A DNA stretch of 38,222 nt from Erysipelotrichaceae bacterium (GTDB lineage Bacteria > Bacillota_I > Bacilli_A > Erysipelotrichales > Erysipelotrichaceae): positions 1 to 38,222 of the forward strand of contig JAFSUN010000002.1 in assembly GCA_017445225.1 (NCBI GenBank), read 5' to 3'. Below, in pieces: positions 13,754 through 14,864 of the stretch. The translations under genes were made by a program, and so were the position numbers. The stretch's first letter is position 1, and every line of letters begins with the position of its first letter. The notes beneath the pieces are model-generated. The model was not told the DNA's origin. It saw nothing but the letters and a program-made list of their open reading frames with translations, and searched no databases.

Positions 13754-14071
13754 CTATAACTTGATCTCGATCTCGACACCGCTCGGCAGTTCCAGTCTGC
13801 TTAATGCATCGATGGTTTCTGCTGTAGGTCCGATGATCTCAACAAGTCTCTTATGAGTTCTGATTTCGAACTGCTCACGGGAATCCTTGTACTTGTGAGT
13901 AGCTCTGATAACTGTTACTACCTGCTTTTCGGTCGGCAGCGGGACCGGTCCAACGACTTTCTTAGCGCCATGATTAGTTGCAGCTTCAACGATTTTCTTG
14001 CTGGCTGAATCAATTGAACGATGTTCATACGCCTTCAGACGGATGCGGACAGTGTTTTTTGCTTTTGCCAT
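13754..14071 (-). CDS. rpsJ: 30S ribosomal protein S10
   Basis: uS10 sits in the head of the 30S and also acts as NusE in antitermination. The 105-residue product starts [19 protein letters not shown], with GGAGG 10 bases upstream. The open frame runs 56 codons further up, but that part is leader RNA, not conserved protein. It contains PVPLPTEK and [14 protein letters not shown]. It is first in the S10-spc-alpha block, behind a leader of about 130 bases and two possible promoters. Confidence 0.97.
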
Positions 14072-14204
14072 GGATAATTTGTCCTCCTTCAATACAATGC
14101 GATGTCTGTTCGTGACAGATCTCCGTTCGATGCGAATTCCCCGGCTACACACCATGACAACGAACATCAGTGTGCCGGCAACCTCGCACGTCCATACGGT
14201 CGCA
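14072..14204 (-). promoter_or_regulatory. Structured 5' leader of the S10 operon
   Basis: About 130 bases of non-coding mRNA precede rpsJ. It contains a strong hairpin (14141-14178: CCGGC + ACAC pairing with GTGT + GCCGG, one 3'-side bulge, loop of about 19 bases) and a 5-bp hairpin (TCTGT / ACAGA, near 14105-14119). In other bacteria the S10 leader is the target of L4 autoregulation; that role here is inferred from position and structure only. Confidence 0.5.
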
Positions 14205-14210
14205 CCGTAT

Positions 14211-14239
14211 ATAATAACAAAAAAAGGGCTGTTAATCAA
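14211..14239 (-). promoter_or_regulatory. Proximal S10 promoter, embedded in a terminator hairpin
   Basis: The -35 is TTGATT (14234-14239) and the -10 is TATTAT (14211-14216), with exactly 17 bases between them. The -35 lies in the loop of the terminator-like hairpin and its T-run forms most of the spacer. A 17-base palindrome (ATACGGT-GCG-ACCGTAT, 14194-14210) begins right after the -10 and covers the expected start point. Confidence 0.6.
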
Positions 14240-14250
14240 CCCTTTTTTTA
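14221..14250 (-). terminator. Terminator-like hairpin upstream of rpsJ
   Basis: On the minus strand A7-GGG pairs with CCC-T7 around an 11-base loop. It may end the EIIA gene's transcript or attenuate transcription from the distal promoter (14303-14330). Because both arms have A/T tracts it could act on both strands. Confidence 0.65.
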
Positions 14251-14302
14251 CGATTTATCTGAAAATTGTTTACCTTTCCAGGTTTCCCTTTTCAAACAAG
14301 TT

Positions 14303-14330
14303 ATTCTACCACATTTCAGCAAATAATCAA
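14303..14330 (-). promoter_or_regulatory. Distal S10 promoter candidate
   Basis: TTGATT (14325-14330), a 16-base spacer and TAGAAT (14303-14308), reading toward rpsJ. Its transcript would start about 50 bases before the terminator-like hairpin, giving an attenuator-like leader. Confidence 0.5.
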
Positions 14331-14364: not shown

Positions 14365-14799
14365 TTACCAGTCATTATTCTCGGCCGGCTGGCGGGAATT
14401 AAGGAATTGCTGGAGATCGGTGATGCCCTCTTTGCTGCGGGCAATGATGCCGTCCAGATCGAGCCTGGAAATGTCATTGTAGACCAGTCTCTTACCCAGC
14501 AGATCCAGCAACATCGGGAAGTTCATGCCCGTAATTATCCTTGTTTTTTCATTCATTATGCGTGAAGCGATGTTGCAGGGAGTACCGCCCAGCAGATCGC
14601 AGAGGATGATTATCCCGTCGCCTTCATCGACATTTCGCACCGCCTGAAGAAGCAGCTGTTCAACCTCATCGGGATCGTCCCCTTTCAGTGTCACAGCTTC
14701 AACAGCCCCCAGCGAGTCACCAAAAAACAGGCGCGAAGACTCCAGCATGCCCTCGGCCAGCGGACCGTGACTGATCAGAATGATACCTGTCATCATCAT
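14365..14799 (-). CDS. PTS mannose-family EIIA domain protein, stand-alone
   Basis: The 144-residue protein matches the EIIA-Man fold. The phosphorylated His is in the N-terminal GIILISHGPLAEGM (His11 from the first ATG), and the family segment GIIILCDLLGGTPCN is near residue 60. Such domains take phosphate from HPr and pass it to an EIIB; no EIIB, EIIC or EIID gene is in the window, so it may be a regulatory subunit or serve a PTS encoded elsewhere. Three ATGs in a row make the exact start uncertain. It has its own promoter and sits between tuf and rpsJ, where Bacillus has nothing of the kind. Confidence 0.88.
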   Translation of the reverse strand: MMMTGIILISHGPLAEGMLESSRLFFGDSLGAVEAVTLKGDDPDEVEQLLLQAVRNVDEGDGIIILCDLLGGTPCNIASRIMNEKTRIITGMNFPMLLDLLGKRLVYNDISRLDLDGIIARSKEGITDLQQFLNSRQPAENNDW

Positions 14800-14815: not shown

Positions 14816-14844
14816 ATTTTACCTTATTTAAAGGACATAGTAAA
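14816..14844 (-). promoter_or_regulatory. Promoter of the EIIA gene
   Basis: TTTACT (14839-14844), 17-base spacer, TAAAAT (14816-14821). The -35 overlaps the T-run and first base pairs of the tuf terminator, so the two signals are stacked. Confidence 0.5.
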
Positions 14845-14864
14845 AGAGCTCTTGCGAGCTCTTT
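14841..14864 (-). terminator. tuf terminator
   Basis: A 9-bp stem (AAAGAGCTC / GAGCTCTTT) with a GCAA tetraloop on the minus strand and a short T-run. It lies 15 bases past the tuf stop and separates the str cluster from the EIIA gene. Confidence 0.85.

Follow-up and report, generated by a model that had tools for sequence, protein, structure and literature searches.

A candidate fused terminator and promoter ahead of the S10 operon in several genera of Erysipelotrichales

Background

In single-molecule studies in vitro, RNA polymerase that has terminated at an intrinsic terminator is usually retained on the DNA and is able to start again from promoters close by (PMC6978380, PMC6978322). A coupling of adjacent promoters has been suggested (PMC6978322), and the in vivo evidence consists of antisense restart (PMC6978380, PMC6978322). 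Several leaders of the S10 operon have been described. That of Escherichia coli has an attenuator controlled by L4 (PMC10931766), a Firmicutes S10 leader is represented in Rfam as S10-Clostridia (RF03136; PMC7247131), and an rpsJ motif has been reported in Peptostreptococcaceae (PMC11109978). Within the limited collection of literature searched, nothing on point was found for promoters placed inside terminators in bacteria.

Sequences and comparison sets

The window is the whole stretch of DNA analysed, 38,222 nucleotides of contig JAFSUN010000002.1 (assembly GCA_017445225.1) from an Erysipelotrichaceae bacterium, probably uncultured, whose genome is fragmented and estimated to be 75% complete. 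S10 loci were gathered from relatives in a first set of 56 and a larger set of 124 loci from 67 genera; these loci are related and not independent of one another. The cut-offs used for hairpins, terminators and distal promoters were partly chosen by the analyst.

Organisation of the S10 locus

The elements that the first-pass annotation had described ahead of the S10 operon are all present on the minus strand of the window. Read along that strand, the order is a gene encoding an EIIA-man domain (14365..14799; PF03610, E 1.6e-22), which forms the unit ahead of the operon, a distal promoter (14303..14330), a hairpin (14217..14251) sharing bases with a proximal promoter (14211..14239), a leader some 130 bases long, and rpsJ (13757..14071, ATG at 14071). 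The last of these encodes ribosomal protein S10 (PF00338, E 2.3e-33), is the first gene of the S10-spc-alpha cluster and is preceded by a ribosome binding site read from the sequence as AAGGAGG (14083..14089). The proximal promoter, TTGATT-N17-TATTAT, lies about 140 bases before rpsJ with a predicted start at ~14204. The distal site, TTGATT-N16-TAGAAT, is situated 91 bases further upstream and possesses a TG-extended -10, an upstream A-tract and a predicted start at ~14296. A count of 28 downstream genes had been proposed: about 28, from rpsJ to rplQ, do follow on the same strand, as judged by the order and size of their ORFs (with a family search for S10 only), and no strong intrinsic terminator was found on the operon strand within this stretch.

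The EIIA-man gene stands alone between tuf and rpsJ, no partner PTS genes being identified beside it, and such a gene likewise precedes rpsJ at locus L018. A search of named genomes with the protein returned one distant locus, in a different region of an Erysipelotrichaceae MAG. The gene has a putative promoter of its own (TTTACT-N17-TAAAAT, 14816..14844, minus strand) that overlaps the tail of the tuf terminator. As the hairpin of that terminator (14864-14843) runs directly into it, this constitutes a second overlap of terminator and promoter nearby (14816-14864).

The proximal promoter and its hairpin

Comparison among relatives identifies the proximal site as the S10 promoter of the operon. 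Across the 124 Erysipelotrichales loci, a TTG -35 and a TAnnnT -10 were each present in 122; the spacer is mostly 17 bases and the distance to the conserved leader RNA is near-constant. The site thus shows what is expected of a sigma-A promoter, namely both hexamers, a spacing of 16-18 bases and conservation before the gene. Most of the 56 loci in the first set, hairpin-less ones included, have an A-tract immediately 5' of the -35. Conservation of the promoters in relatives had been named as the check on the original proposal: it holds for the proximal promoter, while no congener has the distal site.

The hairpin (A7GGG...CCCT7; 15 pairs, loop of 5) reads GTAAAAAAAGGGTTG-ATTAA-CAGCCCTTTTTTTGT at 14251-14217, and its core stem has a pair probability of ~1.0. 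A G+C-containing hairpin followed by a T-run is the form of an intrinsic terminator, and we infer that it would terminate transcription in the cell. The proposal that the proximal -35 lies in the loop applies to its ATT, which alone occupies it; the TTG belongs to the top of the stem, where pairing is weak, and the T-run falls in the promoter spacer.

Several comparisons indicate that the hairpin is real and that its arms match species by species. All eight members of the genus with an S10 locus carry it, and their stems differ yet each pairs (GGG/CCC, GGC/GCC, GTG/CAC and GTGC/GCAC). The energy of the study hairpin was reached by none of 96 swaps with arms from other genera; when arms were permuted, the observed mean was reached in 2 of 5000 trials within the genus and in none of 10000 beyond the genus (n=115). 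Folding energy at the promoter is bimodal in the first 56 loci, with 14 at or below -10.8 kcal/mol and the others at or above -7.1. In the larger set, about 24 of 124 loci from 12 genera possess the hairpin (22 by automatic threshold, with L119 and L170 added on inspection). Matches of the hairpin region to SraG, the L20 leader or other Rfam families were below cut-off and driven by the terminator hairpin, and these assignments were rejected.

In the window and a sample of the study genome, 158 intergenic terminators were surveyed in 659 kb of slightly overlapping sequences. Promoter-like sites are enriched 0-40 nt past the T-runs (29 hits), well above the rest of a 400-nt profile. A genome-wide habit of placing -35 elements in terminator loops was rejected, S10 being the sole clear case among the 158.

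Exchange with separate terminators

Hairpin-bearing promoters trade off with separate terminators. Among loci whose upstream neighbour is co-directional and ends no more than 250 bases away, 1 of 13 with the hairpin and 42 of 58 lacking it have a separate terminator (p 2e-5); the contrast is modest once loci are merged by genus and state (p 0.017). Locus L170 was scored as hairpin-less in this test despite having a hairpin, and its reassignment would strengthen the contrast. A clean exchange between the fused element and a separate terminator is seen within one genus (L123 and L010). At L013 the fused element lies 9 bases after the upstream gene, and at L023 apparently the same gene has a separate terminator. 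In congeners the hairpin is located directly behind EIIA-man or, at L003, an unrelated YdjC gene, resembling the terminator of the gene in question; at L003, where the upstream gene is YdjC and not EIIA, it remains with S10. From the trade-off, the L013/L023 pair and L003, it seems that in most cases the terminator of the upstream gene has been taken up into the S10 promoter. Replacement is not the whole explanation, since no protein-coding unit depends on the hairpin for its termination at L160 and L161 (divergent upstream gene), at L007 (separate terminator) or at the f2 loci, which lie behind 5S rRNA.

The reading we favour, with a probability of roughly 0.7, is that positions 14251-14211 form a fused element, being both the terminator of the upstream units and the sigma-A promoter of S10. 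Comparison among relatives thereby bears out the idea of a promoter built into a terminator. In several genera of Erysipelotrichales, one stretch of about 40 bases would end the upstream message and start the S10 message, usually in place of a separate terminator.

The distal promoter

About 60% of the study genome (0.62 Mb) was scanned with a weight matrix derived from the 55 other S10 promoters. The distal promoter scored 23.5, above every other site (next 22.5) and above 1000 of 1000 shuffles. The plain consensus is weak evidence, as a 9/12 match occurs in 17% of shuffles of the 113-nt spacer (1.6% with an extended -10). Because its matrix score tops both the genome sample and the shuffles, the distal promoter is likely to be real, and would be active, in this species. 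It was sought in all seven congeners and was absent. The possibility of a duplicate of the S10 promoter was discarded, local alignment between the two being no better than with other promoters of the genome. Two hairpins are predicted in the distal transcript, whose length would be about 78 nt, and a search for a conserved element in the spacer transcribed between the promoters gave nothing significant across genera.

Promoter-like sites scoring at least 11 were found upstream of the hairpin at L007, L099, L132, L160 and L161. The score sums hexamer matches and the extended -10, and the cut-off of 11 was picked post hoc; the study site itself scores 10. At this strict cut-off, such sites occur at 5 of 23 hairpin loci versus 0 of 100 others (p 1.6e-4), with p values of 0.016 and 0.13 at looser cut-offs. 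A triad of distal promoter, hairpin and proximal promoter recurs in genera g20 (L007), g49 and g26, the remaining pairs of loci being L099/L132 and, for g26, L160/L161 (long versions L176/L177). In g26 the triad is kept in both species and the upstream gene is divergent, so that the hairpin there can act on the distal transcript only.

The spacer between the promoters at L176/L177 keeps GAAAT-C-CTGAAAGGGCTTTC some 110-85 bases before the leader core, with diverging flanks. At L127, L146 and L007 of g20, an extra hairpin-embedded promoter precedes the S10 promoter by about 80 nt and has TTTATA or TTTACA in the loop and a T-run in the spacer: two fusions seem to stand in tandem.

Leader RNA

The structured core of the S10 leader (14124..14198, minus strand) consists of three stacked helices. 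In an alignment of 55 leaders, 97.7% of cells are paired; the helices covary, with 72 two-sided changes versus 23.5 in shuffles, and sliding the helix partners collapses the pairing signal. The RF03136 model gives 10.4-12.2 bits at the study locus against a cut-off of 35.1, which is reached in only 3 of 60 genomes from the order. Its best match falls just before rpsJ in most relatives, and position, core and helices all agree with the family. Comparison thus identifies the leader as a relative, though a diverged one, of the Firmicutes S10 leader already described (PMC7247131), and not as a new kind; it is called a relative rather than a member because the score is below the cut-off. RF03136 misses most Erysipelotrichales S10 leaders, and a model built from the 55-leader alignment would widen the family.

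Possible consequences of the overlap

As RNA, 14251-14211 would terminate the EIIA unit, to which this species adds the ~78-nt transcript from the distal promoter. As DNA, the same bases would serve as the S10 sigma-A promoter, the A-tract being the 5' arm, the -35 the hairpin apex, and the spacer holding the T-run. Polymerase halted at the hairpin would come to rest on the S10 promoter, and a new or retained polymerase would then start at ~14204 and make the S10 leader RNA, the probable site of feedback control. Judging from known footprints, a polymerase terminating on the T-run (14217-14227) would cover the S10 -10 and start, so that termination and initiation should interfere: termination may hinder the S10 promoter by occlusion or help it by reinitiation. 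A wider reading, in which a tandem module exists in several genera, the distal promoter feeding the terminator-promoter and termination gating or reloading initiation of the ~28 translation-related genes, is proposed tentatively and is rather unlikely.

One alternative is chance, with an A-tract and a T-rich spacer yielding hairpin-like pairing without function. Nearly all loci have the A-tract before the -35, even those without a hairpin. This UP-element-like tract and the T-rich spacer could account in part for hairpins of terminator-like form, although the G-C pairs of the core match by species. Given this species-specific matching of the arms and the trade-off with separate terminators, chance alone is very improbable. 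It had also been proposed that the hairpin attenuates distal transcripts. As its main role this does not stand, for congeners keep the hairpin without a distal promoter; the recurrence of the triad, notably in g26 behind a divergent gene, makes attenuation or insulation of the distal transcript a real possibility, g26 offering the best support for the attenuator idea even though it is another genus. The full switch would have the distal site act as an additional promoter for S10, with a regulated share of its transcripts halted at the hairpin and the proximal promoter occluded by polymerase passing through; it is possible but on the unlikely side. It would account for the best S10-like promoter of the sampled genome, for the strict-cutoff enrichment and for the g26 triad conserved in two species. 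It sits poorly with seven congeners lacking the distal promoter and with transcribed spacers that hold no common element across genera; the enrichment, moreover, comes from three genera at a post hoc cut-off that the study site fails, and weakens below it. No competing antiterminator fold was found in the distal transcript, and nothing therefore suggests an RNA sensor.

Two further readings concern the fate of the polymerase and of the distal transcript. Terminated polymerase might stay on the DNA, rebind sigma and restart at the S10 promoter, the EIIA or distal promoter thereby feeding S10. Retention and restart in vitro (PMC6978380, PMC6978322), the overlap of terminator and promoter at this locus, and the crowding of promoters just after terminators in the study genome are consistent with such a handoff, which we consider quite unlikely in view of in vivo evidence limited to antisense restart in those studies. 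The distal promoter could instead drive an independent small RNA, terminated at the hairpin and unrelated to S10, as the two hairpins predicted in its transcript might suggest; with a spacer that is not conserved in congeners and weakly resembles those of g26 only (p 0.012 and 0.13 for the two spacers), this is improbable. The fused element remains the preferred reading of the locus.

Comparison with known systems

The leader shares with RF03136 S10-Clostridia (PMC7247131) its place before rpsJ, the GAGGUUGC...UUC.CGC..GAGC core and the helices, and differs from it by an additional inserted stretch and by 10-12 bits against 35.1. With the rpsJ motif of Peptostreptococcaceae (PMC11109978), the likeness is one of position before rpsJ. 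The E. coli S10 leader (PMC10931766) also has an intrinsic terminator near the 5' end of the operon, whereas here the terminator precedes the main start and would thus lie outside the main transcript. The locus would represent a natural and recurrent case in which a major growth operon has its promoter on the same bases as a terminator, and comparing related species with fused or separate arrangements makes the block or handoff of released polymerase directly testable. There is also a likeness to the terminator-then-promoter arrangements of polymerase recycling (PMC6978380, PMC6978322), where a promoter directly at a terminator has been suggested to couple units; in the Erysipelotrichales S10 locus, the two signals occupy common bases and are not simply adjacent.
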